This document shows positions 3,542 through 34,397 of a stretch of DNA of 57,307 nucleotides, one piece after another. The position numbers and the translations under genes were made by a program. The DNA is from a virus, in IMG/VR virus record IMGVR_UViG_3300025133_007637, positions 1 through 57,307 of that record; one strand, written 5' to 3'. A model generated the notes under the pieces. It was not told the origin of the DNA and did no database searches. It saw nothing but the letters and a program-made list of their open reading frames with translations. How positions within the stretch are numbered: position 1 is the first letter of the stretch; each line of letters opens with the position of its first letter.

Positions 3542-3543
3542 TT

Positions 3544-3849
3544 TTATATTTCTTCTATCCTCTTTGTTTTATCACAAATTAATAAATCATAATGAGGTTT
3601 GCCCATTTTTAATTCATGGTGTTTAACATTCCATTCTTCAAGTTGATTTTTAGTTAATTCAGTCCAATCGAGTCCGGTTCCACTCCCCCGAGCGGTCCAA
3701 TAAATTATTTCATTTCCTTCATCGTATAAGTTATTAACCAAAGAAATATTATCTATAAGTGGGGTGGCCTTGCTATAATCTCTCGATTCATTCGGATTTG
3801 AATTCTTGTGTTCACAAATTGTTTCATCGATGTCTACATATATTATCAT
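3544..3849 (-). CDS. Small HAD-superfamily phosphatase of the glycan cassette
   Basis: A 101-residue protein with the HAD nucleophile motif near its start (IYVDIDETICEH, D6 and D8), motif II threonine in IIYWTARGSG and a lysine/aspartate end motif GKPHYDLLICD. There is no cap domain, so it is a minimal C0-type HAD like those found next to capsule and sialic-acid genes (often annotated capsular biosynthesis protein). It shares its ATG with the stop of the neuB-like gene (TAATG-type overlap at 3849). A sugar-phosphate phosphatase between the two neu-like genes and rfbH is the likeliest role. Confidence 0.75.
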   Translation of the reverse strand: MIIYVDIDETICEHKNSNPNESRDYSKATPLIDNISLVNNLYDEGNEIIYWTARGSGTGLDWTELTKNQLEEWNVKHHELKMGKPHYDLLICDKTKRIEEI

Positions 3850-4700
3850 TATTCCCCTCTCAACTTTTTTCTAATAGAAATTTCGGCTGGTGTCACAACT
3901 TTATTAGAAGATCCCAAAATAGTATTAATATTTGAACACCTCTTTTTAAGCTTATCCATTCCCATAACTTCTAGACTTGCTTTCTGATCAGTGCCCCATA
4001 AATTATGAGAAAGGGTTATATGCCTTTCAATTACTTCGGCACCCAAAGCCACAGCAATAACTGTAGGCTCTAAATCTTCCTCGTGGCCCGAATATCCGAT
4101 CACACAATCATATCGTTCCTTATAAAATGGTATTAAATTTAAATTAAGTTCTGCGGGTGGCGTAGGATAGCTCGAATTGGTGTGCATTACTACTGGACTT
4201 TTGCCATTTTTCATTATTAAATTAACTGCTACATCAACTTCTCTCAGCGTAGACATTCCAGTAGACATTATTACTTGCACTCCAGATTTTGCACTCTCTA
4301 TAAGCAATTCCGTTTTTGTTATTAACGCTGAAGGGATCTTTATAAAAGGAACTTCATAATGTTTTAAAAAATTTAAACTATCCAAGTCCCACACAGATGC
4401 AGTCCAATCTAAAGGCTTCTCTAAACAATATTTGCGTACTTGATCATATTCTTTTTTCTGAAACTCGATTTTATATTTATAATCCAAATATGTCATCTTC
4501 CCCCACGGGGTTTCTCTCATCACCCCTTTTTGGTGTTCGGGAACACAAATATCTGGATTTCTTTTTTGGAACTTCGCACAATCCCAGTTACATGCATTTA
4601 CCGCATCAATTAGTTTTTTGGCAATTTGAATATCGCCATTATGATTTATTCCTATTTCTCCGATAAAATATGGATGTTCCAATTTATTAAAATCTAGCAT
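3849..4700 (-). CDS. neuB: N-acetylneuraminate/nonulosonate synthase-like enzyme (NeuB family)
   Basis: TIM-barrel PEP-condensing enzyme that would join PEP to a six-carbon amino sugar to give a nine-carbon sialic-type acid. Visible: the start FIGEIGINHNGD, DCAKFQKRN, a catalytic KIPSA near residue 120, VIMSTGMST, GYSGHEEDL, ERHITLSHNLWGTDQKASL. The ATG at 4700 was chosen because GAGGAG lies eight bases upstream; the open frame extends 20 codons further without support. At 283 residues it lacks the C-terminal antifreeze-like (SAF) domain of normal NeuB (about 345), which normally closes the active site of the partner subunit. Next to a NeuA-like transferase. Confidence 0.82.
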   Translation of the reverse strand: MLDFNKLEHPYFIGEIGINHNGDIQIAKKLIDAVNACNWDCAKFQKRNPDICVPEHQKGVMRETPWGKMTYLDYKYKIEFQKKEYDQVRKYCLEKPLDWTASVWDLDSLNFLKHYEVPFIKIPSALITKTELLIESAKSGVQVIMSTGMSTLREVDVAVNLIMKNGKSPVVMHTNSSYPTPPAELNLNLIPFYKERYDCVIGYSGHEEDLEPTVIAVALGAEVIERHITLSHNLWGTDQKASLEVMGMDKLKKRCSNINTILGSSNKVVTPAEISIRKKLRGE

Positions 4701-4713
4701 TGTGTATCTCCTC

Positions 4714-5358
4714 TTATTTCTTTTCTTTAAATTCTTTAAGGTCGCTCTCATAGTCAACATCCACTATTGTATCGGACAAGGGGTAGAAGAATGTATCTTC
4801 ATAATATAAATTGTTGTCCAAACGATTTAAAATATTAGGGCTTGTAATTACCGTATAATGGCAAGCCTCAAAACACGCAGGATACTCTTGCCTTCTATAT
4901 AATTGATGATCAACAACTTTTGCCCCTTTCGATCCGTCTACAACAAGATAGCACATATAAGGATGAGTTAAAATTTTTTTTTGGCACAGGAGCGACTGGG
5001 CACCAGCTTTTAAATAAAAATCATATATTTTTTTAATATCATCAAATTTTCGTTGAGGGTAAGTTAAATACAGCGTGATTAAATCTTGAGTAGGAGATAT
5101 ATTAAATTTCTCTACTGCATCTTTTATAACAAGCTTCATACTCGTATCGTCCTGACACAAACTAGAGTCTCTTTTTAAAATTTTAAAGTTATATCTTTCG
5201 GCTCGTTTTATCAACTCTTCATCATCGGTAGTGAAAATGGTTCGCTCACATAAATATGCAGGTATTTTTTGGGCTGTATAATCAAAAAGGTATCTATTTT
5301 TATTTGGGAACCCTTTAGAATTTTTACGTGCCGGAATAATTATCCAAGCATTTTTCAT
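4714..5358 (-). CDS. neuA: CMP-sugar cytidylyltransferase (NeuA-like)
   Basis: About 214 residues; opens MKNAWIIIPARKNSKGFPNKN, the nucleotide-binding signature of CMP-N-acetylneuraminate synthetases, followed by FTTDDEEL, DLITLYLTYPQRK and a terminal DTIVDVDYESDLKEF typical of the family end. It would activate the NeuB product with CTP. A longer GTG start at 5379 is possible, but the ATG at 5358 matches where family members begin. Only two bases separate the GTG from the stop of the radical SAM gene, so the genes are surely co-transcribed. Confidence 0.82.
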   Translation of the reverse strand: MKNAWIIIPARKNSKGFPNKNRYLFDYTAQKIPAYLCERTIFTTDDEELIKRAERYNFKILKRDSSLCQDDTSMKLVIKDAVEKFNISPTQDLITLYLTYPQRKFDDIKKIYDFYLKAGAQSLLCQKKILTHPYMCYLVVDGSKGAKVVDHQLYRRQEYPACFEACHYTVITSPNILNRLDNNLYYEDTFFYPLSDTIVDVDYESDLKEFKEKK

Positions 5359-5381
5359 CAACTCAGATTCATATTCCACAA

Positions 5382-7079
5382 TTACATCTCAAGTATTTTT
5401 TCTGTTTGGTCAGTATCAATATATTCTCTTGCCTGTAAAAATGTATCCATCGGCATGTTTCCAAAATTTACAGGATTTCCATACATATCATTCAACACTT
5501 TTGTAGCGTCATCCAATTCTAGCACATACTGATAAAAATTTTCATCACAAATTGGCTCTCCATCGCTATCAAAGGAAATATTAAAATGTTTAGACAACTC
5601 CGGGCGGACTTCGCGCCACATTTCGGTCCCTGGATATGCCGTTGCAGTAAACATACGAGCATTAACACTATCGTAAGCTCGCTTATATTCTGAAGTGCCC
5701 GGTACTAAATCCTTAGTACAAAAATTTTGTTGCCACTTAATAAAAGCTACGCTAGTTTGAAGATGCTCTAATTCTTCGCCGGGGAAGGCCATAATCCAAG
5801 TGCAGTTTCCATGAATATCGGCTTCCTTACAATTCTTAACCGCATTTACCATTGTAGTCGGAAAATCATAAATCTTCCCATTGATTCGTGTGGATGTTAT
5901 GCCATTCTTTAAAATAAATCCCCCTTTTTTCATATTCTCTAGTGTAATTGGAGATGCTGATTCTGCACCGAAACCAATATAAACACATCCAGATTCGGCC
6001 ATGTCAAAAAGTCGAGAATCAGCCTCGTCCATTCTAGTGTGAGTTCCCCACTTGATTTTGTCTATCCCGTATTCCTTAAAGACTGGCACCATTCGTTTAA
6101 TTCTTCTTTTATCTACGGCAAAGTTATCATCAGGAAATCCTATAAAATCCAAATTATAGGTATCTATATATTCTCGAATTTGTTTTGCAATATGCTCACA
6201 ACTTCTCATCCCGTAATTTCTTTCTCCCTGGGAACCTCTATAACAAAAAGTACACGCATAAGGACAGCCACGACTACTTACCGTGGTTAAACTTCTTTTC
6301 ATCTCAAACGGAGTAGCAGAACTATTATTGGCTCCTAATCCCCACACAGGAACCTTGATATAATCTTCTAATAAATTATAACCATGTGGATCTGACTCCA
6401 GTAAATCCAACGCAGCATAAGGCAATTTATTTAAATCTCTAGGTCTATTTCCCTCGTACTTAAACCGATGCTTTCCACCCACGTACTCAACATAATGCTG
6501 ACTTATTTGTTGAGACTTGACCGCTTTGTTAATTCCAAGCATCTTGATTGTTTTCACATCATTTAATATAGACAAGATCACATCATCACCTTCAGATCGG
6601 GCAATAGCATCTAATTCAGGAATCCACTTAAATAATCCCATGCTAATTTCTGTAGCAAGACCATTTCCAGTAACAAGAAAACAATCCCGCTGGTGTCTTC
6701 GGATAATTTTTGAAATTTGTTGCTGCCACCTTAAAGTCGTTATCTTTCCTGACAAAGCTATAATATCTTGATCACCAACATTTTCTAAATGCTTGAGAAT
6801 TATAGATTCTGCTTCAAGATAACTCAAGTGGCGACCATTAGGAAGGTTGCGATTAATTGCGATTTCATCTTTAATTCGATAACCGTTTAAATCAATAATA
6901 TGGGGCTCGGCTCCGTGATTTCTTGCAATTGAGGCTAAGATACCCGGACCCTCGGGAGGAACATTAGGAAGGGCGGCCTCTCGTAGTGGCATATTGATAA
7001 AAGTTATCTTTATCCCCCGAAAACTATTAGAAGAAAAATCTTCTACAGAATTTTTTATAATAGAAAGCAACTTGGACAT
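5382..7079 (-). CDS. B12-binding-type radical SAM enzyme
   Basis: A 565-residue protein. The N-terminal part (residues about 25-190) has the order of a cobalamin-binding domain (ITFINMPLREAALPNVPPEGPG, ..EPHIIDLNGYR.., ITGNGLAT-like turn), though the DxHxxG histidine ligand is not evident. The radical SAM core follows with SSRGCPYACTFCYRGSQG (the [4Fe-4S] C-x3-C-x2-C motif), then DFIGFPDDNFAV and GFGAESAS strands. Proteins of this architecture do methyl transfers, epimerisations and ring rearrangements on sugars and lipids. Within this cassette an unusual sugar modification is the simplest guess. Substrate unknown. Confidence 0.82.
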   Translation of the reverse strand: MSKLLSIIKNSVEDFSSNSFRGIKITFINMPLREAALPNVPPEGPGILASIARNHGAEPHIIDLNGYRIKDEIAINRNLPNGRHLSYLEAESIILKHLENVGDQDIIALSGKITTLRWQQQISKIIRRHQRDCFLVTGNGLATEISMGLFKWIPELDAIARSEGDDVILSILNDVKTIKMLGINKAVKSQQISQHYVEYVGGKHRFKYEGNRPRDLNKLPYAALDLLESDPHGYNLLEDYIKVPVWGLGANNSSATPFEMKRSLTTVSSRGCPYACTFCYRGSQGERNYGMRSCEHIAKQIREYIDTYNLDFIGFPDDNFAVDKRRIKRMVPVFKEYGIDKIKWGTHTRMDEADSRLFDMAESGCVYIGFGAESASPITLENMKKGGFILKNGITSTRINGKIYDFPTTMVNAVKNCKEADIHGNCTWIMAFPGEELEHLQTSVAFIKWQQNFCTKDLVPGTSEYKRAYDSVNARMFTATAYPGTEMWREVRPELSKHFNISFDSDGEPICDENFYQYVLELDDATKVLNDMYGNPVNFGNMPMDTFLQAREYIDTDQTEKILEM

Positions 7080-7128
7080 TTTCTAAAGCCTCACTTCTAG
7101 ATCAGATTTATCTTATCTATTAGATTTT

Positions 7129-7971
7129 TCATAATTTGTTGTTGTCTCGAAATGATAAATTATAAGGTAATTTATTATTTTTAAAAGACAGGTTGTGTAT
7201 TTCGACCCCATTATTATACCCTATTTTGCATAAATATTGTAGGTCATTTATGATTTGCTTTCTTTCAAAAGGATCATCAAAAGCATAAAGCTCCTGAGAT
7301 GTTTTTGATGATTTTATTTTTTCGTCAGTATAACCAGCATGTGTGTGTCCAGTTTTAGAAAGAGCCTCTGAATACGAAAGATCAAAACCTGTAACATGGA
7401 TTGGATTACAACCCAAAAACAAAGCTAATGCAATCATGTGATTGGTAACAGTATTACAGTGAGAATAGGCTGATTTAAATCCATATTTAGAAGCTAACAT
7501 AGATTGAAAGACTTTGTGTTCCCACAACCACGGATAAATCTCAAAAGAATCATCATCAAATTCTTCAAGTAATTTCTCAAATTCTGTTTTCAGTGGAATG
7601 GTGATCAAAGAGTTAATTTTTCTTTTTTGACATTCCCTTAAAGACTCTTTTAACGCCTCATAAGAATTAGCTGCAACCCAATAATCCGGTTGAAAATCTT
7701 CATCGAAGAAGTCTGGTATTAAATGAAAATCATTACAAGTTATTTTAACATAAGATTTATAAGATTCCTTATCCAACTCTAATAAACTTGGACCATGTGC
7801 AAGCACTACAGCGGGTTTGTTTTTGTGGAAATCTTTTAATGATAAAATCTTATCATAGCCATTTATCATTTTTTGGCGAAATAAAGATTCGTTCTTAACA
7901 AAATTAAATTCTTGACCTATTTTTGTTTTTAAATCTACATTTTCTACAAATTCTCTAATTTGTCTTTGCAT
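7129..7971 (-). CDS. DUF115/GT42-like putative glycosyltransferase
   Basis: A 280-residue protein with AVVLAHGPSLLELD (glycine-rich nucleotide loop), ITCNDFHLIPDF, PDYWVAANSYE, a histidine/threonine segment HCNTVTNHMIALALFLGC and IHVTGFDLSYS. This order is shared by DUF115/MptE-like proteins and by CAZy GT42 sialyltransferases (GPSL, CN-x-F, T..A.A.ALG..I...G.D). With NeuB- and NeuA-like genes in the same operon, transfer of a CMP-nonulosonate is attractive but unproven. It overlaps the neighbouring SDR gene by 17 bases. Confidence 0.6.
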   Translation of the reverse strand: MQRQIREFVENVDLKTKIGQEFNFVKNESLFRQKMINGYDKILSLKDFHKNKPAVVLAHGPSLLELDKESYKSYVKITCNDFHLIPDFFDEDFQPDYWVAANSYEALKESLRECQKRKINSLITIPLKTEFEKLLEEFDDDSFEIYPWLWEHKVFQSMLASKYGFKSAYSHCNTVTNHMIALALFLGCNPIHVTGFDLSYSEALSKTGHTHAGYTDEKIKSSKTSQELYAFDDPFERKQIINDLQYLCKIGYNNGVEIHNLSFKNNKLPYNLSFRDNNKL

Positions 7972-8809
7972 TACAAAAATCCTTTATAACCTTTTCCAAA
8001 CTGCTGTCTAAACCCTGTAGTTTTAAATTTAAAGAATTAAGATTATCTGCACACCCAGTATATTCCGGGGAAAATCCACCTTCTAATACTTTAATTTTAG
8101 GCTTTATAATCATAATCTTGTAAATTTTTTTAATCACTTCTTTTAATTCTACCTTTTCAGTATAGCATAAATTTAAATCCCTTGTCAACACCTTTTTATC
8201 ATAATTTTCTAAATAATAATCTATTACTTTACAAACATCATCAGCTGCAAAAAAATCCATTACCTTATTCTGGTGTATAATGGGGGCTTCGCCCTTCAAA
8301 ATTCTATTAACAGAACCCTTTATAAACCTATCTTCTTTTTCAAATTTACCAAAACAACCAAAAAGCCTGAAGTTGAAAAAATTCTCATCTGATTCTCTTA
8401 TTTTTTTTGAAATAAGATTTTTAGCTATTCCATAATAATCCAAAGGTACAAAATTTAAAATTTCCTCCTCTGAGGCGTTAATCACGCCATTGGGACGATT
8501 GAATTCTGCCCCGGAGCCGAAATTGATCAAAACCTTAAACTTATCCGAATTTTGAATAAGATTCTCAAACATTTTTAGATTATTTATAAAATCTGAGAAT
8601 GTGTCGTTATCATTTCTTTTTCCGCCTGAAATAGCGGTGTGTATTACTGCATCAACTTTGAAATTTAAAAAAAAGTTATCGACTTCCTCTTTTGAAGACA
8701 CATCAAGAACAGTTCTATTGGTGGCGATCAAATCATGCTTAGAGTTTAAAAAAGAGTTACAGATCTCTTTACTTAAAAAACTATTACATCCAGTTATTAA
8801 AATTCTCAA
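7955..8809 (-). CDS. Extended short-chain dehydrogenase, NAD-dependent sugar epimerase/reductase
   Basis: 284 residues. Rossmann loop ITGCNSFLSKE at the start (variant of TGxxGxxG with the middle glycine replaced), VDAVIHTAISGG, INFGSGAEF, and YYGIAKNLISKK with the catalytic Tyr-x3-Lys; VMDFFAADDVCKVIDYYL is the usual substrate-domain strand. It starts with TTG overlapping the stop of the transketolase half (TATTGA). Likely a reductase or epimerase acting on a nucleotide sugar of the cassette. Confidence 0.72.
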   Translation of the reverse strand: MRILITGCNSFLSKEICNSFLNSKHDLIATNRTVLDVSSKEEVDNFFLNFKVDAVIHTAISGGKRNDNDTFSDFINNLKMFENLIQNSDKFKVLINFGSGAEFNRPNGVINASEEEILNFVPLDYYGIAKNLISKKIRESDENFFNFRLFGCFGKFEKEDRFIKGSVNRILKGEAPIIHQNKVMDFFAADDVCKVIDYYLENYDKKVLTRDLNLCYTEKVELKEVIKKIYKIMIIKPKIKVLEGGFSPEYTGCADNLNSLNLKLQGLDSSLEKVIKDFCNAKTN

Positions 8810-9288
8810 TATTTTCTCTTAAGATTCAAATAAAATGGTTTTTCATTATCAATGATTTCACGAAAAGAAATTTCTAATTCTGTTTTACCTTCAGGGTGGA
8901 GCATTGTTATATTAGAAAAATTTTGTATTATTTTTTTATCATCTTCTGACCAATGGGAAAACCCCAAATAACCATAGTCTTTATCTCTCCCGCCGCCAAT
9001 TAATTTAACTGGAATTTTCTCATGATCAATGTAATTTCTTATCAACTCAAAAGGTCTATACAACAAAAACGATGTTATTGAGTAGACAATAGGTATTTTT
9101 TTTTCCATCGCAAGCCCCACTGCGGACCCAACCATCAACTGTTCGGCAGAACCAACATTAATGAACCTATTGGGAAAGTCCTTTCTTATCTTATCCCACA
9201 AACCATAACCAAGATCGCCAGTAATCAGATAAATTTTCTCATTTTTTTGCATCTCTTTATACAATAATTTAGAAAAGTCTTTTCTCAT
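8806..9288 (-). CDS. Transketolase-like subunit, pyrimidine-binding half
   Basis: 160 residues matching the Pyr domain of transketolase/DXP synthase: LITGDLGYGLWDKIRKDFPNR, the cofactor glutamate in VGSAEQLMVGSAVGLAM, and PVKLIGGGRD. The C-terminal transketolase domain is absent. It partners the PP-domain subunit encoded just upstream (20-base overlap), so the pair forms a heteromeric, two-gene transketolase as seen in some glycan clusters and archaea. A two-carbon transfer to make a branched or longer-chain sugar is the inferred role. Confidence 0.8.
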   Translation of the reverse strand: MRKDFSKLLYKEMQKNEKIYLITGDLGYGLWDKIRKDFPNRFINVGSAEQLMVGSAVGLAMEKKIPIVYSITSFLLYRPFELIRNYIDHEKIPVKLIGGGRDKDYGYLGFSHWSEDDKKIIQNFSNITMLHPEGKTELEISFREIIDNEKPFYLNLKRKY

Positions 9289-9925
9289 TCATTTCTCTCT
9301 TTCTTTTTAACATTTTTTTAGCCAAATCATAGTCATCAGAACTCATAATATGATAATGAGCATTTATTCCACATAAAAATGGAAAATGCTCTACTGTTGT
9401 ATGTCTTACTTTAACATTTGGATTAAATGCCTTTATCCTTTTAACTAAATAATCTTCATTTATTTTATCATAAGCACAATAGCCGTTTACGTTTAAATAA
9501 ATTTTCAAATTAGATAAACCATTTTCATAGGCAAATCTAAGACCTTCCCAGATAGAACCTTCTGCACACTCACCGTCACTAATTAAACAATAAACATTTT
9601 TATTTTTGTTTGCCAATGCTCTACCTATTGCCACTAACAAGCCAAGTCCCAAACTTCCCGTTGAACAATATAACTCATTTTTTTCATCTCGATAAGGGTG
9701 TCCACCATGTTTTATAAAAAGGCTTTCTGCGTTAATGTTAAAATGTTTTTCTATAACAACATAAAGAGCAACAGCCGCATGTCCAGAAGATAGAATGAAA
9801 ACATCATCTTTATTTTTTGTTTTAAAAATTTCCTCTATTATTTCTAAACTAGAAAAATAGCTTCCTAAATGTGATAAACTGTGTTTGTGTGCTATCTCTA
9901 TTATCCTTTCTTTTAAATTTTCCAT
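9269..9925 (-). CDS. Transketolase-like subunit, thiamine-diphosphate-binding half
   Basis: 218 residues. Carries the start of the PP domain (IAHKHSLSHLGSYFSSLEIIEEIF), FILSSGHAAVALYV, GSLGLGLLVAIGRAL, and the ThDP/Mg motif GDG-x(n)-N: LISDGECAEGSIWEGLRFA followed by KIYLNVNGY. The canonical GDG reads SDG here, a conservative change. Transketolase N-halves are usually about 270 residues, so this is a compact version. Encoded directly upstream of the Pyr-domain subunit. Confidence 0.8.
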   Translation of the reverse strand: MENLKERIIEIAHKHSLSHLGSYFSSLEIIEEIFKTKNKDDVFILSSGHAAVALYVVIEKHFNINAESLFIKHGGHPYRDEKNELYCSTGSLGLGLLVAIGRALANKNKNVYCLISDGECAEGSIWEGLRFAYENGLSNLKIYLNVNGYCAYDKINEDYLVKRIKAFNPNVKVRHTTVEHFPFLCGINAHYHIMSSDDYDLAKKMLKRKREMNEKRLF

Positions 9926-10641
9926 TTATTTCCCCATTTTTCTCTTATCTTTTTTACATAATCTACTTTTTCTTTATGCATCCCCCATGTTGCTTGTTCA
10001 GGGTGCCAACGATAATAATATCCTAGCCATTGTGGAAATGGAAAAATAAATAAGTTATTATCAGCTAAGTTAAAATAAAGATCATAATCATCTGCTCCAA
10101 GATAATCTTCGTCATTCCATCTGATTAGGCCATCATCGTAAAGATCTTTGGAATAGACCATAGATGGGGTATTGACTGGACTTTTTGAAAATAGAAGTTG
10201 TTTAAATTCATCTAAATTTTTATATGAATGGGACATTTCGCCCGTGAATCCCTGATTGTCACCTTTGACGCCTAAAATTGGAGATTGAAGTAATTTGATC
10301 CTATCTGTATTCTTAGAAACTATCTTAACTATTTTCTCTACATAATCCTCTGCCAGATAATCATCTGAACCTAAAATAGTAAAGTATTTTCCACTTGTGT
10401 GTTTTAAAGCTTTACCAACAGGTTCAGACCAAGAAAATTTATAAAGATTCGGTGCTGTGAAAGTCTTTAATTTGGGATAATCACTCTGTACTTGTTTTGC
10501 TATCTTTAAACTATTATCGGTACTTTCATTATCCACAAAAATTACTTCCGTATCTTCGTGAGTCTGAACAAGGGCTGATAATAGTGACTGCCGAATCCAT
10601 TTCTCTGAATTGTAACAAGGTATTATTATTGTAAATCTCAT
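9913..10641 (-). CDS. Family 2 glycosyltransferase
   Basis: 242 residues with a GT-A fold start (FTIIIPCYNSEKWIRQSLLSA), EVIFVDNESTDNS, and the metal-binding GSDDYLAEDYV near residue 95, all typical of GT2 inverting transferases. DDYDLYFNLA further on fits the acceptor-side acidic motif. Cytoplasmic and without membrane segments. Its ATG precedes the transketolase subunit by a 13-base overlap. Confidence 0.88.
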   Translation of the reverse strand: MRFTIIIPCYNSEKWIRQSLLSALVQTHEDTEVIFVDNESTDNSLKIAKQVQSDYPKLKTFTAPNLYKFSWSEPVGKALKHTSGKYFTILGSDDYLAEDYVEKIVKIVSKNTDRIKLLQSPILGVKGDNQGFTGEMSHSYKNLDEFKQLLFSKSPVNTPSMVYSKDLYDDGLIRWNDEDYLGADDYDLYFNLADNNLFIFPFPQWLGYYYRWHPEQATWGMHKEKVDYVKKIREKWGNKWKI

Positions 10642-11538
10642 TTATAACTCCATTAATTGCTCAACTCTTTTGATATAGGTGTGTTCATTGTTGATCAATT
10701 CCCTATTCTTTCTCTTGACTTCTTCCAAATCATCTAAAGGCATGTTAACATAATGTTTTATTAATTCAACCATCTGTTTTGGAGTGTCATAAAGTTCTAA
10801 ACTTGGAAACGTATTTTTAACTTGAGTAATGTTATCACATACCAACGCTCCTGTCAAGCCTAAAGATTTAAAAGTCCTCTCATTCGAATCAAGTCCAAGA
10901 ACTCTCTGGTAAGCGTCATGGATATTGAGTGCAACTTTACTGTTTGATAGAACTTGATTCTCTTGTTCATGCGTTAAATTTTTGTTTATAAAAATACCAC
11001 ACTTTAGTCCTGAATTATGCAATTCAGCAAAATGCTCTAACATTATTCTTTTCTTTTCATTGAATCCATTATTGGCCCAGCCGCCAATAAAGCATACATC
11101 GTAAGCATATTCACCTTTTCTCAAATCTTTATAATTTACTGAATCAAAGGCCAACAAAATTCTATCAACAGATTTCCATTTATTATGAAATTTAGCATTG
11201 TCTCCAAAAGACCACAATTTACAATTATCTATTGAGTTTAAAGAATCGATAACATTATCCGCGCATAAGCATTTAAAGTTTGGATGTCTTCCCCATGGTT
11301 CAGGAAAACTGTTTGGCTGTGCATAAACAAAAGACTTGATAGAATTTTTAATAACATGTAAATTTTGTAAATTGATATCAGAATCTACAGACATCAAATA
11401 ATAATCAGAATCATCTATTTCAGATAAAGAGTTATATAAAATGGTTTCATAACCCTTTGATTCCCAACCACCAACATACCCCTTATTATAAATCCAATGG
11501 CCCGCATGAGAACTATGGTTCTTAATATAAACTCTCAT
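10642..11538 (-). CDS. GT-B glycosyltransferase, CgeB/Glyco_trans_1_2-like
   Basis: 298 residues with a two-lobe GT-B layout. The second lobe shows YDVCFIGGWANNGFNEKKR, SNSKVALNIHDAY and NERTFKSLGLTGALVCDN, the pattern of CgeB-like glycosyltransferases in which an Arg/Thr-Phe-Glu segment binds the nucleotide. Overlaps the next upstream gene by four bases and abuts the GT2 gene. Confidence 0.75.
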   Translation of the reverse strand: MRVYIKNHSSHAGHWIYNKGYVGGWESKGYETILYNSLSEIDDSDYYLMSVDSDINLQNLHVIKNSIKSFVYAQPNSFPEPWGRHPNFKCLCADNVIDSLNSIDNCKLWSFGDNAKFHNKWKSVDRILLAFDSVNYKDLRKGEYAYDVCFIGGWANNGFNEKKRIMLEHFAELHNSGLKCGIFINKNLTHEQENQVLSNSKVALNIHDAYQRVLGLDSNERTFKSLGLTGALVCDNITQVKNTFPSLELYDTPKQMVELIKHYVNMPLDDLEEVKRKNRELINNEHTYIKRVEQLMEL

Positions 11539-12458
11539 AACTTATTAATCTCTTCTAAGACCTTTTCTAAGCGGGCGTGAGACTGGTGTTCTTTAAGGAA
11601 CCTATTATGCCCACGAGTGCTTATTTGTTCTACAATTTTCGGATTTTTTATAAGAAATTGTATCTTCTCTAGTAATTCCTGTCCTGACTTCCAAGTTACT
11701 ATTTCTTTATTAATTTCAAAGAAGTTTTCGATTCCATCATGGTGTTCGGTTAGTAATAAACTGTTCGCTCCAGGTATTTCAAACATTCTTGCCTTCATTT
11801 GTGTTTTAAATTCAGGATCATTAGGGTTCACGCTAAAATTTAATCCAATTTTCGAGTTAGAATAAGCCATCATTAATTCTTCATAATTAACATTTGTGAT
11901 TTGAACCATTGGGACTTTATAGTTCTTCAGCATTTCAACATAGGGAGTTCTTAATGGATCCATTCTTCCAACAAAAGAAGACTCTAATGTCTTATCACGA
12001 AATTCTATGAACGGATGATAATTCTTATTGGAGTGCCATGCACCTAAAATAATCTTGTCATAGCCAACTTGCTTAAAATTGTCAATATAACTGGGTTCTG
12101 GTGTTGAACAAACATTAAAATAGTGACACGTTTTACTAGAAAAACTTTTAAATCGCCAAGTGTCGTCACAAAACCAATTAAATGTCTTTGTTCTACCAGA
12201 TTCTGTTTCTTGTCTTATTTCTTCCCAAGGCTCAAAAGGAGTCATTTGGGGATTTCCGGTCATACAACAAAAAATTAAGTCGGGTTTAAAGGATTCTATA
12301 ATTTTTGAAAAACTTTTTTCTTCTGGATTTACAGTATCGTAAAAATAAACATCATGTTCCAGGTCTTTTAGGGGTAAGTAAACGTTTTTATAGCCACCAT
12401 CTTCAATGTCCTTGGTTCCTCTCCTGAGTGTTTTATTCAAAGTTAAAAGAATTTTCAC
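11535..12458 (-). CDS. GT-B glycosyltransferase, CgeB-like
   Basis: 307 residues, starting with GTG 12458 placed seven bases after GGAGGTG. N-terminal lobe KILLTLNKTLRRGTKDIEDGG and PDLIFCCMTGN; C-terminal lobe SSFVGRMDPLRTPY, SKIGLNFSVNPND, QMKARMFEIPGANSLLLTEHHDGI and FFEINKEIV, the classic CgeB-type nucleotide-sugar loop. It forms a tandem of two CgeB-like transferases with the neighbouring gene. Confidence 0.78.
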   Translation of the reverse strand: MKILLTLNKTLRRGTKDIEDGGYKNVYLPLKDLEHDVYFYDTVNPEEKSFSKIIESFKPDLIFCCMTGNPQMTPFEPWEEIRQETESGRTKTFNWFCDDTWRFKSFSSKTCHYFNVCSTPEPSYIDNFKQVGYDKIILGAWHSNKNYHPFIEFRDKTLESSFVGRMDPLRTPYVEMLKNYKVPMVQITNVNYEELMMAYSNSKIGLNFSVNPNDPEFKTQMKARMFEIPGANSLLLTEHHDGIENFFEINKEIVTWKSGQELLEKIQFLIKNPKIVEQISTRGHNRFLKEHQSHARLEKVLEEINKL

Positions 12459-13316
12459 TTAAAACACCTCCAATACTTTTGTAAGGATTTCAGGTTTTTT
12501 ATCCCTCATTTTTTCAATCAACTCTTTTCCCTTTAACTTAAACCAATCTTCTTTTGAGGCTCCGACATTATTATTCGTCGTAATAGACATGCCTGCCATT
12601 CTTGCTTCCACGATTATGCGGGACAAGGTTTCTGGTGTTTTGGGAAGAAATACAAATTTATCATTGTTTGTTAATCTGTTTAAAAATTCTTCATTTGAAC
12701 ACGAAGGGATAAGTTCAAAATCCAATTCTTTAATTTTGCAAAATCTAACTGCGTCTGCTGTATTCTTATGCCAATTATCACTTTGCATAATTGAAAACTT
12801 ATCCTCTTTGGGTTTATCGGCCAGTTTTTCTAAAAGACTTAAACTTTCATCAGACCAAAGATTCCCGCCCAGACTAACGATGTTGTCTAATGACAAGTTC
12901 TTCTCTACAATCTGCTTATGAAATTCGCTTTGACAAAATACCGCTTTTGCGTATTTATAAAAATCATAGTTAATGATTTGATCTTTCGGTGCAATATAAT
13001 CTTTATAATCGGCGGGATTTCTGGTTTTTAAATACTTGTGATCATGTTCATAAATTACATAATTACAGTATTGTGTTAATAGATCTCGAAATCTAGGATT
13101 TAATTGCACAAAATTTGAAACAATAAAACTGGATGAACGATTGTCATAAAGAAATTGTTCTGTAATGTGGCTGCATTTAATTTTTATAAGTGGTTGGGTT
13201 GTTTTAGTAACTAAATTACAGAATTCGTGATTATTTAATTCACCACCACCAAGCAGACCATCTTCTACAAAAAAATCTGCTATAAAGATGATTTTATCAT
13301 CCGAATGACTCAACAC
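12459..13316 (-). CDS. GT-B glycosyltransferase, family 4-like
   Basis: 285 residues. IFIADFFVEDGLLGGGELNNHEF is the glycine-rich N-terminal loop of GT-B enzymes; FVFLPKTPETLSRIIVEARMAGMSITTNNNVGA near the end is a degenerate E-x7-E nucleotide-sugar motif. The start is GTG 13316 inside the 3' end of the preceding gene and lacks a clear ribosome binding site, so translation is probably coupled. Confidence 0.7.
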   Translation of the reverse strand: MLSHSDDKIIFIADFFVEDGLLGGGELNNHEFCNLVTKTTQPLIKIKCSHITEQFLYDNRSSSFIVSNFVQLNPRFRDLLTQYCNYVIYEHDHKYLKTRNPADYKDYIAPKDQIINYDFYKYAKAVFCQSEFHKQIVEKNLSLDNIVSLGGNLWSDESLSLLEKLADKPKEDKFSIMQSDNWHKNTADAVRFCKIKELDFELIPSCSNEEFLNRLTNNDKFVFLPKTPETLSRIIVEARMAGMSITTNNNVGASKEDWFKLKGKELIEKMRDKKPEILTKVLEVF

Positions 13317-14580
13317 TTAACTCGTCTAGCCAATTCTCAACACTGAATTCTTTCTCATCGTAAACACTAGTAACAAATTTATTATACATCTTATCTTGTG
13401 CATGTGTTTCTAAAAGATGAGCTTTCAGTTTTTTAGCCTTTGATTTTGCTGTTCCATAATTATTAAAAACTTTTCGCATAACCTTTTTACAATGCCATTC
13501 TATCGGAAAACACCATTGAGAATCAGCCTCGATAACAGTAGCCCAAACAGCCTCTTTCTGAACTGGTTTAACTTCATAGGAAACCGAACTAAACATTGGT
13601 TTCGCCTTTGACGCCTTTTCTTTTGAACCATCGTGAATATACAAATAATCAACAGGTCCACCCCAATCGGGAGCGATTACTGGTAAGCCGCTATAGGCAG
13701 CTTCGAAAATTGGTAAACCATAACCTTCTCCGTGCGACAAACTTAACAATACCTTAACTTTTGGGTGTAAATACAAAGAATGCATTTCTTGGTCTGTAAG
13801 ATCGCCATGCAATAGGTGAACACTGCAAGTTCGATCTTTATAGTTGGTTAAAAGCTCACTCAACCTTTGTTGAGTAGCCATTCGATCTTGAATACAATTC
13901 TTCGCTAAAGAAGTTTTAATAATAAGGCCAACTTCTTTATCATGAAATTCTTCAACAAACCATTTAATGGTGTTTTCCATGTTTTTTCGTGGAATCCATG
14001 TTCCGACAGTCAAAAAGTTAAATTTATGCTTTAATTTTAGATCTAAATCTACTTTCTCGAATTCTCTAACTGGATATCCGACTACATCAATTTTTAAATC
14101 TGGCTTTGCTTCTAATAGTTTAACCTTCACTGGTTCTGGTGAAGTCCCATTATTCGCTTCTACAACTGTATTCACAAAAGCAAATTTAGTGTGTTGTGAG
14201 ATCACAATCATTTGATCAACTTGTGTGGCGCATTTCTCAAACCATTGTGGAGAAATTTTGGTAGATTCTGTACCTGCTGTTATACCAATAGTTTTTTGCG
14301 CGTTTGGATTTCTTTGCCATTCTCCTGGTATTGTGACATGCAAACACAAATCAAATTTACCACCTTGTTGAGTATATCCAATTGTTTTGCCCAATAACTG
14401 ATCAATCCACTGGCGTTCTTCGTTATCTTCCCAAATCCAACCAGTTTGGCCCCAGTTAAGACTAACGAGATAAACATCAAATAACTCAGGACGTGATCTT
14501 AGAGAGCGAAGCACAAAACGTGTGTGTTCTCCATAACCGCTTTGCGTTAGCGCCGGTCCAATAACTAATACTTTTTTCAT
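13297..14580 (-). CDS. Family 4-like glycosyltransferase
   Basis: 427 residues from ATG 14580. KVLVIGPALTQSGYGEHTRFVLRSL is the donor-lobe entry; FLTVGTWIPRKNMENTIKWF and SLSHGEGYGLPIFEAAYSGLPVIAPDWGG give the GT4 core with the E-x7-E pair (EGYGLPIFE). Cytoplasmic. The open frame runs six codons further to a TTG, but the ATG fits family starts. Overlaps both neighbours by a few bases. Confidence 0.88.
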   Translation of the reverse strand: MKKVLVIGPALTQSGYGEHTRFVLRSLRSRPELFDVYLVSLNWGQTGWIWEDNEERQWIDQLLGKTIGYTQQGGKFDLCLHVTIPGEWQRNPNAQKTIGITAGTESTKISPQWFEKCATQVDQMIVISQHTKFAFVNTVVEANNGTSPEPVKVKLLEAKPDLKIDVVGYPVREFEKVDLDLKLKHKFNFLTVGTWIPRKNMENTIKWFVEEFHDKEVGLIIKTSLAKNCIQDRMATQQRLSELLTNYKDRTCSVHLLHGDLTDQEMHSLYLHPKVKVLLSLSHGEGYGLPIFEAAYSGLPVIAPDWGGPVDYLYIHDGSKEKASKAKPMFSSVSYEVKPVQKEAVWATVIEADSQWCFPIEWHCKKVMRKVFNNYGTAKSKAKKLKAHLLETHAQDKMYNKFVTSVYDEKEFSVENWLDELSVESFG

Positions 14581-15905
14581 ACTTCTATAAGCTCCCAAGA
14601 TTTATAATTTTTTCGTGTATCCCACGATCCACATTCATCGTGAATTTCTGTCATAAAATTTGACCAATCAGATGCGAATGCTTCAAAACCATAATTTTCT
14701 TCCACATGCTTTCTTCCTGATTCTCCCATTTTCTTTCGCTCTTCTTGTCCAAGTTCATACATCTTCATAAGAGAATCTGAGACTGATTTTCCAGATAACC
14801 GATCTTCATAGATATAAGGAACTTCTTGACTTCCAATAATTGCTTTAGAAGCAGGTTCCAATCCAATTCCATTTTCATAGATTGTAATGGCCTTGTTCTT
14901 CTTGTTTCTCTTAAGAGTAGATTCAAGACTAACTTTATCAGTTTTTGTTACTTGTTCTTGGAGCCCGCCAGTCATTGTAACAATAATTGGAGTCTCACAA
15001 GCCATTGATTCGAATGTAGATAGTCCGAAGCCTTCAGCATCTGAAATTCCCAAAGTTACATCTGCGGCACTATACATGGCAGACAAGTGCGGGGCGTCGA
15101 TCTTTACACCAGAAATTAAAAATTCTTTCTCTTTAAAACCAAGCTTTTGAGCAATAACATGTAAGTCTTGCCCATTAGGATCTTTTGCTTCTGTATGCAT
15201 TAATAAAGTAACTTTTCTATCTTTGTACTTCTTCTTAAATTGTGTCAAGAAATCCGCATACCAGAATACTAAAGAGCCACTTTGTTTGCGCCTTGCATTT
15301 CTACTATTCCAAAAAATTAAATAATCATCATCGTTAAATCCAAAGTTCTCTTTTCTAAACTCTTTTCTTTTATCTGCCGGTAAAGGATTAAAGAGTTGAG
15401 AAGGAACAGCGTGAGGAATATACTTTTCTTTCACTGCGGGTGATACTGTTTGAACTAAATTCGATGTTAATTTTGAAATAGTTACGACTGCATCATTTGA
15501 ATCATACCAACATTTATTAAAATCGGGATAGGGGAAATTGTCCCAAACATGATAATAAACCATAGGAACAAGTGAACGAATCTCGTTTTCCATTTGCCAA
15601 AGCCAAGGATAAAAACGAGGATCTGTCATAAACCACAAAATGTCTGGTTTTGAAGATCTAAGAATAGAGCGAAGCATTTCTGGATTTCCATATCCATCAA
15701 TGGGATAGATTATCCAATCATCTTTAAATTCTTCGACTTTTACTGGCTGGTAGTTTTCGTGTTTGATTGCACCGCCGAGACTTACAAACTCAAATTTACC
15801 AGTTTTTAACAACTCAACAATAAAATACTTTGTTTGTGTTCCAACTCCTGATGGTGATAGTGGGTGATCTGAGATTGTTAAAATTTTTATTTTCTTATCG
15901 GACAC
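14577..15905 (-). CDS. Family 4 glycosyltransferase
   Basis: 442 residues. KILTISDHPLSPSGVGTQTKYF at the N-terminus, LIFWNSRNARRKQSGSLV opening the second lobe, and DAEGFGLSTFESMACETPIIVTMTGG with the E-x7-E motif. It is the first glycosyltransferase of the cassette in the direction of transcription, nine bases after the nuclease gene, and resembles its neighbour at 13297-14580 in arrangement, suggesting an old duplication. Confidence 0.9.
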   Translation of the reverse strand: MSDKKIKILTISDHPLSPSGVGTQTKYFIVELLKTGKFEFVSLGGAIKHENYQPVKVEEFKDDWIIYPIDGYGNPEMLRSILRSSKPDILWFMTDPRFYPWLWQMENEIRSLVPMVYYHVWDNFPYPDFNKCWYDSNDAVVTISKLTSNLVQTVSPAVKEKYIPHAVPSQLFNPLPADKRKEFRKENFGFNDDDYLIFWNSRNARRKQSGSLVFWYADFLTQFKKKYKDRKVTLLMHTEAKDPNGQDLHVIAQKLGFKEKEFLISGVKIDAPHLSAMYSAADVTLGISDAEGFGLSTFESMACETPIIVTMTGGLQEQVTKTDKVSLESTLKRNKKNKAITIYENGIGLEPASKAIIGSQEVPYIYEDRLSGKSVSDSLMKMYELGQEERKKMGESGRKHVEENYGFEAFASDWSNFMTEIHDECGSWDTRKNYKSWELIEV

Positions 15906-19172: not shown

Positions 19173-20033
19173 TTGAAAGATGCGGTCGCAAAACTTATTT
19201 TATCAACCATGATGTTCATAACACTTGTTGGATGTTCATCTTGTGTTAACAGTTCTTATCTTTTCGGCCCAGGAGATCTTTTCAGAGATAAAAGGAGATC
19301 TTTTATAAAAATTGATGTTTACAAAAACATTGTTGTTACCAAAACATCAACTGCTCCCGACTATGCTCGATCTGAAGAATATGAACTTGATTTAAGATCG
19401 TCTGCTTCTGGATTTATTGTTGGCCACGACAGAGAAATAACTCTTGTGGCAACATCAGCACATGTTTGCTCTTTTATGGTGGGAAAGCAAATAAATTATT
19501 TTATCCCCGATTTTAATGCACGAGATCCTGACTGGAAGTTTAAGGAAAGGAATTCTTTTATCTTAAGTGATTATAAGGGAAGAACCTATGCGTCTATTCC
19601 GCTCAAATTTGATCTAAAAACTGACATTTGTATTCTAGGATCTGCTAAAATTCCTCTTCCAGAATTAATAATTTCAAAAAATCCACCACTAATTGGTGAG
19701 AAATACTATAACATCGCTGCACCAATGGGCGTTTGGTCTTCAAAAATGATTCCATTATTTGAGGGATTTTATTTGGGACCAATGAAAATGCGAAATGGTA
19801 GAAGAACATCCTATGCCTTTTCAATACCAACAAAAGGAGGATCTTCTGGTTCTCCTATTTTAAACAGTTATGGAGAAGTTGTTGGAGCAACACATTCAGC
19901 CTATAGAGGATTTGAAAATCTTTGTATGGCAACAACAAACACCCAGATCTACATGGCACTTCGATCTGCGATGAATCGACTATTAAAAAATTATAAACAA
20001 TTTAAGCTCATCATTGATCTGATCAATATTTAA
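19173..20033 (+). CDS. Secreted trypsin-like serine protease, putative lipoprotein
   Basis: The only convincing plus-strand gene. The TTG start at 19173 gives MKDAVAKLILSTMMFITLVGC, a lipoprotein signal peptide with lipobox LVGC; AGGAGA lies 13 bases upstream. An ATG at 19209 would leave too short a signal. The mature 265 residues carry a chymotrypsin-fold triad: His in ATSAHVC, Asp in KFDLKTDICIL, Ser in TKGGSSGSPIL. Such proteases cleave periplasmic or surface proteins. A divergent promoter pair is likely in 19068-19172 (TATAAT-like boxes on both strands). It faces the tmRNA gene end to end, with one base between the stop and the tmRNA 3' end. Confidence 0.85.
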   Translation: MKDAVAKLILSTMMFITLVGCSSCVNSSYLFGPGDLFRDKRRSFIKIDVYKNIVVTKTSTAPDYARSEEYELDLRSSASGFIVGHDREITLVATSAHVCSFMVGKQINYFIPDFNARDPDWKFKERNSFILSDYKGRTYASIPLKFDLKTDICILGSAKIPLPELIISKNPPLIGEKYYNIAAPMGVWSSKMIPLFEGFYLGPMKMRNGRRTSYAFSIPTKGGSSGSPILNSYGEVVGATHSAYRGFENLCMATTNTQIYMALRSAMNRLLKNYKQFKLIIDLINI

Positions 20034-20501
20034 TGGAGGTGGCGGGAATCGAACCCGCGTCCTAAATGTTTTAACAGTTTGTGATATACAAGGTTAAACT
20101 TTAATCTTTCTTTTGGACGAAAGAATTAAGTTCTTCTGCAACTTTAATAACTTGTTCAGAAGTAACAGGCGTCCAATTTTTTTTGCCGCTTGTTTCAAAT
20201 TGCATATGAGCGTTCTGCTCTACAATTCGTTGGGCTTGCTGTAGCAATCCTTGCCTAATTTCGTATCCGTTTCTATTGTTATTCTCTGACATAGTATTTC
20301 TCCTCTCTGTCTGTGTGTTAATTTAAAGCACGGTTTATTGGGTAACAAGGAAAAACCGTAAAAACCCCGCTTTGTTTGCTTACGCAGCCAAAGTTAATGC
20401 AACATTATCGTTAGCAGTTATTTGTTTTAAGCCTTTTAGTGTTTGCTTATACACCCTTGCACAAATCTATCTCGACACCCAGTCGAATCCAGTTCACCCC
20501 C
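20034..20501 (-). ncRNA. ssrA: tmRNA (ssrA) with an embedded protein gene
   Basis: Acceptor stem GGGGGTG (20501-20495) pairs with CACCTCC (20041-20035), discriminator A at 20034, with the G3:U70 wobble that specifies alanine; CCA is not encoded. GGATTCGAC and a T arm GCGGGTTCGATTCCCGC are intact. Helix P2 is TTTGTG..CAAGG with CCTTG..CACAAA; PK1 is GTGT/ACAC with TAAGC/GCTTA. The tag, 20415-20380, starts at resume codon GCT and reads ANDNVALTLAA-stop. One pseudoknot follows (ACGGTTT/AAACCGT with GGGT/ACCC). Where PK3 and PK4 should be there is instead a 63-codon gene (20101-20292). Length 468 nt, against about 350-400 usual. Confidence 0.93.
20101..20292 (-). CDS. Small protein encoded inside the tmRNA
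   Basis: 63 codons from ATG 20292, with GAGAGGAG eight bases upstream, so a normal independent start. The product opens MSENNNRNGYEIRQGLLQQA; the N-R-x-G-Y-E-I-R start resembles small conserved proteins of T4-like marine phages. Its stop is eight bases before the 3' strand of tmRNA helix P2, so the gene replaces PK3-PK4. Expression would need either translation of the precursor/mature tmRNA itself or an internal promoter, which I do not see. Confidence 0.8.
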   Translation of the reverse strand: MSENNNRNGYEIRQGLLQQAQRIVEQNAHMQFETSGKKNWTPVTSEQVIKVAEELNSFVQKKD

Positions 20502-20514: not shown

Positions 20515-20543
20515 ATTATAGCAGATTTTTTTTGGAATGTGAA
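20515..20543 (-). promoter_or_regulatory. tmRNA promoter
   Basis: TTCACA (20543-20538), 17-base spacer, perfect TATAAT (20520-20515); the mature 5' G lies 13 bases further on. The leader between contains half of a 20-base sequence also present at the 53252 gene promoter. Confidence 0.75.
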
Positions 20544-20552: not shown

Positions 20553-20942
20553 TTAGTATCGGCCAGCGGTTGACAGAGGGTCGTCTGGATTCAATTCTGA
20601 CCTCCGTGTAACAGTTCCTTTTCCTGCTAAAGAATCCATTGTAGAGCGAAACACATCACGAACATCAGGATCTTTTGTAATTTCTCGCGGAAGATGACTC
20701 TCCCAGTTTTGTAAAGCTGCTGCAAGGCCAAGCCTCATTTTTGGTGCGTTATTTCCAAGTTCCCATAGCTGATTAAAAATAATCTTCGCACCTTCCACAG
20801 TCATATTTTTTCTTTCGTCGGTTGACATCTTCTGTAATTTATCAACAAAAAGTTCAGCTTCAATTTCCGCATCGCCTTCTTTTAAAATAGTTGAAAGTTC
20901 CTCTTTAATAATTTTCTGAAGTTTGTCTTTTGTAAGTTTCAT
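20553..20942 (-). CDS. Hypothetical phage protein with N-terminal KLTKDKLQKIIKEE helix
   Basis: 129 residues. It begins with a short amphipathic helix (KLTKDKLQKIIKEELSTILKEG) common at the start, or after an internal Met, of marine phage proteins; the 339-residue protein at 23166-24185 carries a similar stretch (INESHLRDIIQGVIREMF). The rest is helical with no recognised domain. AGGAGA lies seven bases before the ATG. Function unknown; the helix may be a capsid-targeting or processing sequence. Confidence 0.75.
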   Translation of the reverse strand: MKLTKDKLQKIIKEELSTILKEGDAEIEAELFVDKLQKMSTDERKNMTVEGAKIIFNQLWELGNNAPKMRLGLAAALQNWESHLPREITKDPDVRDVFRSTMDSLAGKGTVTRRSELNPDDPLSTAGRY

Positions 20943-31631: not shown

Positions 31632-32864
31632 TTAGAATTGATCTTCTTCAGTTGAATTTTTTAATGCTAGTGTTGAGGAATTACCCCCACTTATAACTTG
31701 TGAAACTTTATCAAAATAGCCGGTGCCGACTTCGTGCTGATGTTTTGTTGCAGTAAAACCGTCTTTTGCAGCTTTAAACTCTTTTTGTTGAAAACTAGAG
31801 TATGCGGCCATTCCTTCGGTCTTATATTTGTTAGCTAATTCAAACATACTATAATTTAATGTATGAAAACCGGCCAAAGTGATAAATTGAAATTTAAAAC
31901 CCATTTCATTAAGTAATTCACGAAATTTCTTGATTGTTTCTTGGTTCAAATTCTTTTTCCAATTAAAAGATGGAGAACAATTATAAGCTAATAATTTATC
32001 TGGGAATTTATCATGGATTGCTTTAGCAAATGATTTGGCTTCTTCTAAATCTGGTGTTGAAGTTTCAAACCAAATCATGTCTGCATGAGCGCAATAGGAT
32101 AAACCTCTATCAATAGCCATGTCAAGTCCGCCAGTAATCTTATAAAAGCCTTCAGCTGTTCTTTCACCAGTTATGAATTTGTGATCGCGTTCATCAATGT
32201 CAGAAGTCATTAGTTTTGCGCTTCCAGCATCAGTGCGAGCGATAATAACTGTTTCAACAGCACAAACATCAGCCGCAAGCCTCGCCGCAGTTAATGTTTT
32301 AATAAATTGAGAAGTAGGAACAAGAACTTTTCCACCCATATGTCCGCACTTCTTTTCTGAGGCTAATTGATCTTCAAAATGAACACAAGATGCGCCAGCT
32401 TCAATCATAGCTTTCATCAATTCATAGGCATTTAATGAACCGCCAAAGCCTGCTTCTGCATCAGCAATAATTGGAACAAACCAATCAATATCATGATTAT
32501 CTTCCGAATGATCAATTTGATCTGCTCGTTGTAAAGCTTTATTAATTTTTTTAACAACTTCTGGAACAGAGTTTGCTGGGTATAGGCTTTGATCAGGATA
32601 CATACTTCCTGCAAGATTTGCGTCTGCTGCTACTTGCCATCCACTCACATAAATCGCTTTCAGCCCAGCGCGGACTTGTTGAACAGCTTGGTTGCCAGTA
32701 AGTGCGCCTAGTGCCGCAACGGGTTGCGGGCCTTGGAGCCGATCCCAAAACTTTATTGCACCAGTTTCTGCCAAAGTATATTTAATTTGTAAAGAGCCTC
32801 TTAAAGACATTACATCTGTATAATCATACGGACGTTTAATATATTGCCATCGATCAATTGTCAT
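31632..32864 (-). CDS. aceA: Isocitrate lyase
   Basis: 410 residues, full family length. Cleaves isocitrate to glyoxylate and succinate, the first step of the glyoxylate shunt. Visible: [54 protein letters not shown] with the catalytic KKCGH at residues 171-175 (C173), [29 protein letters not shown] and the C-terminal [11 protein letters not shown]. No active-site residue is missing. ATG 32864 chosen over 32870 because GGAGG ends just before the latter. Lies 18 bases after aceB in one operon. Confidence 0.96.
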
Positions 32865-32882
32865 TTTCATTCCTCCAAGAAA

Positions 32883-34397
32883 TCAAGTAATAAGATCATA
32901 ACATTTTAAAGTTAGAAAGTCAATTATTTTTTTAGAACTACACAATTCAATAAAAATCTCTTTTGTGTTATCAAATTGTTTACAATTCTTAAACTGCTCT
33001 AATTCCTCATTTATTAATTTAGTTAAAAAAGGTTTTGTCACCCTTTCGCCGTTGTTAAGATAAATTTTAAATTTTAACCACTGCCAAATTTGTGCTCGGG
33101 AGATTTCGGCAGTTGCTGCATCTTCCATAAGATTATTAATTGGAACACAACCGTTTCCGTTTAACCAAGCATTCAAATACTGAAATCCAATTCTAATGTT
33201 ATCTCTTAAACCTTCTTCAGTGCAAACTCCCTTTGGAACACATAATAAATCTTTCTGGGTTATTAAATCATTAAGATAAATTTGTTTATGAATTTGATTT
33301 GGAGTTTCCATATGAGAATCAAAAATGCCTTTAGCTATATATACCAAACCAGGATGTGCTACCCAAGTTCCATCATGTCCGTCTTGAACTTCCCTTTCTT
33401 TATCTGCCATTACTTTTGCCATCGCAACTGCATTTCTATGTTCCGCATTTTTAATAGGAATTTGTGCTGCCATGCCTCCAATGGCATGTGCGCCTCTTTT
33501 ATGACAAGTCTGTACTAAAAGTTGTGAATATGAGCGCAAAAAATGCTCTTTCATTCCAACCTGATTACGATCTGGCAAAACAAAACATCTTTCTGATGAC
33601 ATTGTTTTTATAAAACTGAAAATGTAATCCCATCTGCCACAATTTAAACCAGCAGAATGTTCTCGAAGTTCAAATAAAATTTCATTCATTTGAAATGCTG
33701 CTGGCAAAGTTTCAATCAAAACCGTAGCTTTAATAGTTCCAGGTTTTAAATCAAAATAAGATTCTGTAAAGTTAAAGACATCGTTCCATAGTCTTGCTTC
33801 TTTATAACTTTCTAGTTTTGGTAAATAAAAATAAGGAGCACTATTATTTTTTTTGAGTGCTTTATGATTATGGAAGATATATAAACCATAGTCAAAGAGA
33901 GAAGCACGAATTGGTTTATTATGAACAACATAATTCTTTTCAACAAGATGAAGACCTCTTGGTCTTACAAAGAGAGTCGCAGTTTGATTTTTTAAACTAT
34001 AATGTTTTTTCGTTGTGGGGTCTGTGTACTCTATGGTTTTGGCCACTGCGTCACGCAGATTCTCTTGACCCTGAAGACAATTCTCCCAAGTCGGACAATT
34101 TGAATCTTCAAAATCTGCCATAAAAACATTGGCTCCTGAATTGAGAGCATTAATAATCATTTTACGAACTGGCGGTCCTGTAATCTCTACTCTACGATCA
34201 TTTATTTCTTCTGGAAATGGTGAGATTGTCCATTCAGTTTCTCTCACTTCTTTTGTAGAAGGTAGAAAGTGTGGATGAACTGGAATAATTAATTTCTGCC
34301 TTCTAGCATTCAGAAGTAATTCTATTGAATTAGAAAATGAAACTGAAAGATCATTTAAAAATTTTTTTGCTTCTTTAGTTAAGATTTGATTTGACAT
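32883..34397 (-). CDS. aceB: Malate synthase A
   Basis: 504 residues; condenses glyoxylate with acetyl-CoA to malate, the second step of the shunt. Visible: VFMADFEDSNCPTWEN, FVRPRGLHL (active-site Arg), the family signature IETLPAAFQMNEILFELREH..GLNCGRWDYIFS at residues 228-260, RGAHAIGGMAAQIP and NLMEDAATAEISRAQIWQW with the catalytic Asp near 425. Slightly shorter than E. coli AceB (533) but without gaps in core motifs. Twelve bases after the 34410 gene. Confidence 0.96.
   Translation of the reverse strand: MSNQILTKEAKKFLNDLSVSFSNSIELLLNARRQKLIIPVHPHFLPSTKEVRETEWTISPFPEEINDRRVEITGPPVRKMIINALNSGANVFMADFEDSNCPTWENCLQGQENLRDAVAKTIEYTDPTTKKHYSLKNQTATLFVRPRGLHLVEKNYVVHNKPIRASLFDYGLYIFHNHKALKKNNSAPYFYLPKLESYKEARLWNDVFNFTESYFDLKPGTIKATVLIETLPAAFQMNEILFELREHSAGLNCGRWDYIFSFIKTMSSERCFVLPDRNQVGMKEHFLRSYSQLLVQTCHKRGAHAIGGMAAQIPIKNAEHRNAVAMAKVMADKEREVQDGHDGTWVAHPGLVYIAKGIFDSHMETPNQIHKQIYLNDLITQKDLLCVPKGVCTEEGLRDNIRIGFQYLNAWLNGNGCVPINNLMEDAATAEISRAQIWQWLKFKIYLNNGERVTKPFLTKLINEELEQFKNCKQFDNTKEIFIELCSSKKIIDFLTLKCYDLIT

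Follow-up and report, generated by a model that had tools for sequence, protein, structure and literature searches.

The tmRNA Gene

The DNA analysed here, hereafter the window, is a 57-kb viral fragment (57,307 nt; IMG/VR record IMGVR_UViG_3300025133_007637) whose minus strand carries, at 20034..20501, an ssrA tmRNA gene with a protein gene embedded in it. A search of the record with the tmRNA model RF00023 returned a match at 20031-20501 of the minus strand, covering model positions 1-374 with 108.8 bits (E 3.6e-43; gathering score 47). The tmRNA runs from G1 at 20501 to the discriminator A at 20034, and CCA is absent from the DNA. A preliminary description of the locus had listed a G3:U70 acceptor, T arm, P2, PK1, the resume codon GCT and the tag ANDNVALTLAA as hallmarks of a tmRNA, and had proposed ARAGORN and Infernal as a check; the hallmarks are borne out by the strong RF00023 match, whereas ARAGORN does not report the window tmRNA.

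All features of the gene lie on the minus strand. The acceptor stem is of the alanine type, GGGGGUG (20495..20501) pairing with CACCUCC (20035..20041) to include G3:U70, and both strands are invariant in 14 distinct tmRNAs of the family. The T arm (20042..20058) reads GCGGG-UUCGAUU-CCCGC, with compensatory changes among relatives in three of its five stem pairs. P2, located by fold prediction and helix comparison, joins its 5' strand UUUGUGCAAGG (20455..20465) to the 3' strand CCUUG-UAUAU-CACAAA (20078..20093; hereafter P2'), and PK1 occupies 20428..20454, with both stems 100% paired across the 14 tmRNAs. The resume codon GCU (GCT in the DNA, 20415-20413) opens a tag frame, identified by translation and by the RF00023 alignment, that encodes ANDNVALTLAA and a stop (20380..20415); the tag ends in a hydrophobic degron. 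The H5 hairpin found by helix comparison (20370..20393) contains the tag stop codon and is followed by PK2 (20329..20368), with stems GGGU/ACCC and ACGGUUU/AAACCGU. The window tmRNA has PK1 and PK2 only and not four pseudoknots, and the same is true of its relatives without the embedded open reading frame (ORF).

A consensus scan places a sigma70-type promoter, TTCACA-N17-TATAAT, at 20515..20543, 13 nt before G1; it agrees with the consensus at 11 of 12 bases, has TG preceding the -10 box, and a TATAAT-like box is retained upstream of the tmRNA in most relatives. The gap between tRNA-Gly and the tmRNA is itself a variable spot, holding in the window a gene for 129 amino acids (20553-20942) that is absent or different even in the 99.5% identical L046.

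The Embedded Gene

Between PK2 and P2' lies an insert of 229 nt, which includes a 192-nt ORF of 63 codons and a stop at 20101..20292; its product is MSENNNRNGYEIRQGLLQQAQRIVEQNAHMQFETSGKKNWTPVTSEQVIKVAEELNSFVQKKD. The ORF is preceded by a CA-rich leader and the Shine-Dalgarno sequence AGAGGAG (20300..20323), 7 nt from the ATG, and similar leaders occur across the protein family. Its stop codon falls 7 nt before P2'. There is no credible promoter directly before the ORF in the window, the best candidate matching the consensus at 9 of 12 positions and ending at the start codon.

A protein search recovered ten IMG/VR contigs with ORFs 88-100% identical to that of the window, and RF00023 scored above threshold around the ORF in all eight loci at which the tmRNA is whole; at L005 and L007 the contig ends within the locus, and what remains of the flanking tmRNA sequence is present. 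Scans for the tag, the P2/PK1 core and the leader revealed ORFs of two more subtypes at the same site, 68 and 69 amino acids long, and a profile search added L100. This brings the total, within one tmRNA lineage of uncultured marine phages, to 20 ORF-bearing records, window included, and 10 ORF-less records, besides one (L173) that is cut before the site. In L002 and L004 the tmRNA sequence is that of the window, of which these two records are not independent.

Close homologues of the ORF show dN/dS values of 0-0.15, with a maximum of 0.29 inside either length class, and the window and L003 ORFs differ by 12 synonymous and no nonsynonymous changes. The embedded protein is under strong purifying selection. 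A chance ORF is ruled out by this conservation in other contigs and by the dN/dS values, together with the compensatory changes in the RNA helices. The 63-codon gene with a strong Shine-Dalgarno sequence that the preliminary description had placed between PK2 and P2' is therefore real, and the search it had suggested for an NRxGYEIR protein inside or beside ssrA found a family member inside in 20 records, window included, and directly downstream in L115 and L117.

Conservation of the tmRNA and the Empty Site

Seven helices were compared across the 14 distinct tmRNAs after the ORF had been stripped. Of the helix cells, 98.7% are paired, and changes on both sides of a pair were observed in 15 cells, compared with 3.8 in shuffles. 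Compensatory changes are also found among the ORF-bearing members, which retain the tag, H5, the acceptor and T-stem pairing. No variation in P1 or inner P2 is seen across ORF-bearing and ORF-less relatives, and PK2 can form in every relative despite differing stem sequences. The tmRNA halves of the window are 95-98% identical to those of L024, L063 and L082, and up to 100% for one half, whereas the flanking phoH and protease genes are only 70-74% identical in the same comparison. L019, L027 and L072 have a second type of 3' half with an identity of just 75-81%, an indication of module exchange at the tmRNA locus. Three ORF-bearing tmRNAs (L003:3238, L005:362 and L008:2772) have an unusual T arm, GGGAGTCGGTGCCC, in which the stem changes are compensatory and an 8-nt T loop, AGTCGGTG, replaces TTCGATT.

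The ten ORF-less relatives have tmRNAs of 238-253 nt, with synteny detectable in nine. L024 and L043 share the tag of the window and agree with it in the order of their homologous flanking genes, and in both only a linker of 15 nt joins PK2 to P2'; the same junction without the gene is present in L031, and further ORF-less members of 238-244 nt are L015, L050, L057, L080, L089, L029 and L033. PK3 and PK4 are present in none of the ten. Since the gene-less orthologues already do without these pseudoknots, the ORF did not displace them: the preliminary description had correctly located the gene between PK2 and P2', where PK3 and PK4 normally lie, but the gene did not replace them. Comparison of the filled and empty sites indicates that the gene entered a tmRNA with only two pseudoknots, or was lost from one. 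Relocation of the gene elsewhere in the ORF-less phages was considered, and no such copy was found in the 10 records, all of which are fragments; nor was a second copy found in the ORF-bearing records searched, which are likewise fragments. Thanks to the orthologous empty site, natural pairs with and without the insert offer a direct test of its effect.

The GYEIR Protein Family

As judged from profile searches, the embedded protein is a member of a widespread, unnamed phage family (here GYEIR) whose genes elsewhere lie outside tmRNA; two such searches of viral contigs returned at least 166 and at least 226 relatives. The gene is found between gp23-like capsid and gp19-like tube genes (L107, L108), between a gp32-like gene and uvsX/recA (L178-L183), and in or beside tRNA genes in tRNA arrays (L095, L102-L105, L201-L204), these neighbours being named from a reading of their proteins and not from a family search. 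At these sites a CA-repeat leader with a Shine-Dalgarno sequence precedes the gene. Short-form members have a CA-rich leader and an AGGAG-type Shine-Dalgarno sequence, and because this combination is shared, leader and ORF appear to travel as a single unit.

In an AlphaFold model the embedded protein consists of two helices (mean pLDDT 78.6). Sequence and fold searches of the PDB gave no convincing solved match, BFVD returned weak, unnamed viral matches only, and PHROG and Pfam made no assignment. The Pfam family G1RFP (PF24182) was rejected, as it reached 16 bits against a cut-off of 22.6 on a homologue and is nonspecific, the same search matching 10 of 14 control genomes. Among the isolate phages of INPHARED there was no match to the tmRNA or the ORF, and a query with the L028 homologue yielded nothing convincing. 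In L115 (2551-3213) and L117 a gene of the family lies directly downstream of, and outside, a tmRNA of the alphaproteobacterial type, and in L178-L183 near-identical hairpin elements, CCGCAGGGAGGCCTGGGTTTACAGAGGCCTC, stand on both sides of the GYEIR gene.

Comparison with Known tmRNA Forms

The window tmRNA shares with the standard one-piece form (RF00023) the G3:U70 acceptor stem, T arm, P2, PK1, resume codon and tag, H5, PK2 and the order of the gene, but differs from it in having no PK3 or PK4 and in carrying a complete protein gene in the loop between PK2 and P2'. A 2025 tmRNA database of 97,179 sequences (PMC11915505) distinguishes standard, group I intron and permuted forms. According to the same paper, the protein genes reported inside tmRNA genes are homing endonuclease genes within introns, present in 36 of 883 intron forms, and one permuted form contains a tRNA gene. 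Like the window, these endonuclease-bearing intron forms hold a protein gene within a tmRNA gene; their endonuclease gene, however, sits in a self-splicing T-loop intron that is removed (PMC11915505), whereas the window tmRNA is intron-free, has an intact T loop and carries its gene at another site. A group I intron was accordingly rejected, since no Rfam intron family matches, the T loop is uninterrupted and the insert lies elsewhere.

Marine phages are known to carry tmRNAs, and many of these are two-piece (PMC9004378). Permuted two-piece tmRNAs (RF04321; PMC9004378) resemble the window in their fewer pseudoknots, in the joining of parts by P2 and in their occurrence in marine phages, whereas the window order is unpermuted and the interruption is a protein gene. 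A permuted tmRNA can be set aside because RF00023 aligns end to end without permutation and the RF04321 match (47.1 bits) is accounted for by the 5' half that both forms have in common and by DNA upstream of it. The dual-function RNAs SgrS/SgrT, RNAIII and SR1 (PMC5521070) also combine a non-coding role with a small protein; the window RNA differs from these small RNAs in being a tmRNA with its own tag frame, for which a double function is proposed here.

An unspliced, unpermuted form bearing an ORF is not mentioned in the available text of PMC11915505, and no literature on an ORF inside a tmRNA was found in open-access sources, in keeping with the earlier remark that a tmRNA with a non-tag gene of this kind is not known to have been described. 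The ORF-bearing tmRNA is apparently an undescribed fourth form of tmRNA gene. The locus further exposes a gap in annotation, as ARAGORN misses the window tmRNA, and a large unnamed family of phage proteins.

A Proposed Bifunctional Transcript

The anatomy and conservation of the tmRNA, the selection acting on its embedded protein and the orthologous empty site lead us to propose that the locus probably encodes a bifunctional transcript, namely a functional tmRNA whose tolerant loop holds an mRNA cistron; we infer that both functions operate, that the same RNA molecule serves both, and that there is a benefit. A mini-cistron consisting of a CA-repeat leader, Shine-Dalgarno sequence, GYEIR-family ORF and stop would have been inserted into the loop between PK2 and P2'. 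A single transcript would start at the one promoter 13 nt before G1, and its ends would form the mature, folded tmRNA (P1, T arm, P2, PK1, tag, H5 and PK2). The tmRNA domain would use SmpB of the host, which is assumed because no phage-encoded SmpB was found in 13 records, while the loop would be translated from its internal Shine-Dalgarno sequence into a small helical protein. A likely benefit would be high expression, as a strong promoter, together with two ends held fast in a tRNA-like domain, would yield a stable mRNA.

Several observations bear on this proposal. Folding with the insert, which the preliminary description had called for, leaves P1 and inner P2 intact, with predicted pairing of 0.95-1.0 while the ORF is in place. 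According to PMC3968760, tagging does not require PK2-PK4 (Nameki 2000 and Gaudin 2002, cited there), so a full set of four pseudoknots is not obligatory in a tmRNA, and split, two-piece tmRNAs are active, so that continuity of the RNA is not required; the PK2-P2' loop should therefore tolerate an insert. The protein frame, as dN/dS shows, is conserved in the manner looked for in a dual-function RNA. In L027, the Shine-Dalgarno sequence is predicted to be paired, which counts against the bifunctional reading. L020 and L072 have a perfect TTGACA-N18-TATAAT promoter between PK2 and the leader, inside the tmRNA (L098:2922-2951, scanned on L098, the same contig as L020), and because of it the protein may in these two also be expressed from a separate, shorter transcript.

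An unpermuted two-piece tmRNA, in which RNases would cut the ORF segment from or within the precursor, P2 would hold the halves together and translation of the ORF would be confined to the precursor or the excised segment, seems to us unlikely. Two-piece tmRNAs with fewer pseudoknots are indeed active (PMC3968760) and common among marine phages (PMC9004378), and the invariance of P1 and inner P2 with and without the ORF would suit such a molecule. Nevertheless, the known two-piece forms arise from permuted genes, which the window gene is not, no conserved processing element was seen flanking the ORF beyond the leader and stop, and the predicted fold does not need cutting.

That the ORF is instead a passenger which damages its tmRNA, so that ORF-bearing copies would be inactive in rescue and the locus would only express the protein, is very unlikely. 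The tmRNA halves are conserved to about the same degree in ORF-bearing and ORF-less members, and far more than the flanking genes, and the retained tag, H5, acceptor and T-stem pairing, like the compensatory changes among the ORF-bearing members, speak against such damage, even though presence of the ORF varies among related phages, three ORF-bearing tmRNAs have the unusual T loop and L020 and L072 have the internal promoter. Finally, an untranslated ORF, whether a structured or spacer stretch that happens to lack stop codons or an artefact of assembly, is extremely improbable, given the 12 synonymous and 0 nonsynonymous changes between the window and L003, the dN/dS of 0-0.15, the homologues elsewhere that are free genes with the same leader and Shine-Dalgarno sequence, and the repetition of the arrangement across many separate assemblies.

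If the transcript is bifunctional, one RNA may be tRNA-like, a tag template and an mRNA at once. This suggests that a tmRNA is able to hold an independent cistron, which would let phages place a small gene on an RNA that is both stable and under a strong promoter. A point against the proposal is that a ribosome terminating at the ORF stop, just 7 nt short of P2', would cover part of P2 and might upset the folding; rescue and translation may be mutually exclusive on one molecule, and translation up to P2' could transiently open P2. A natural RNA scaffold or switch, in which the tmRNA ring would be a nuclease-resistant mRNA carrier and translation to the edge of P2 would reversibly open the tmRNA, tying rescue to the capacity for initiation in the infected cell, is a speculative extension that we consider doubtful.

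Other Genes in the Window

Adjacent genes for isocitrate lyase and malate synthase (Pfam ICL and MS_TIM-barrel) at 31632-34397 correspond to the glyoxylate shunt, and part of this DNA is common to L069. A lipoprotein-like protein of 639 amino acids with five MopE-type metal-binding repeats (PF11617) is encoded at 53252-55171, and positions 1260-14598 form a large sugar and surface block with NeuB, a split transketolase, radical SAM and glycosyltransferase-like genes.
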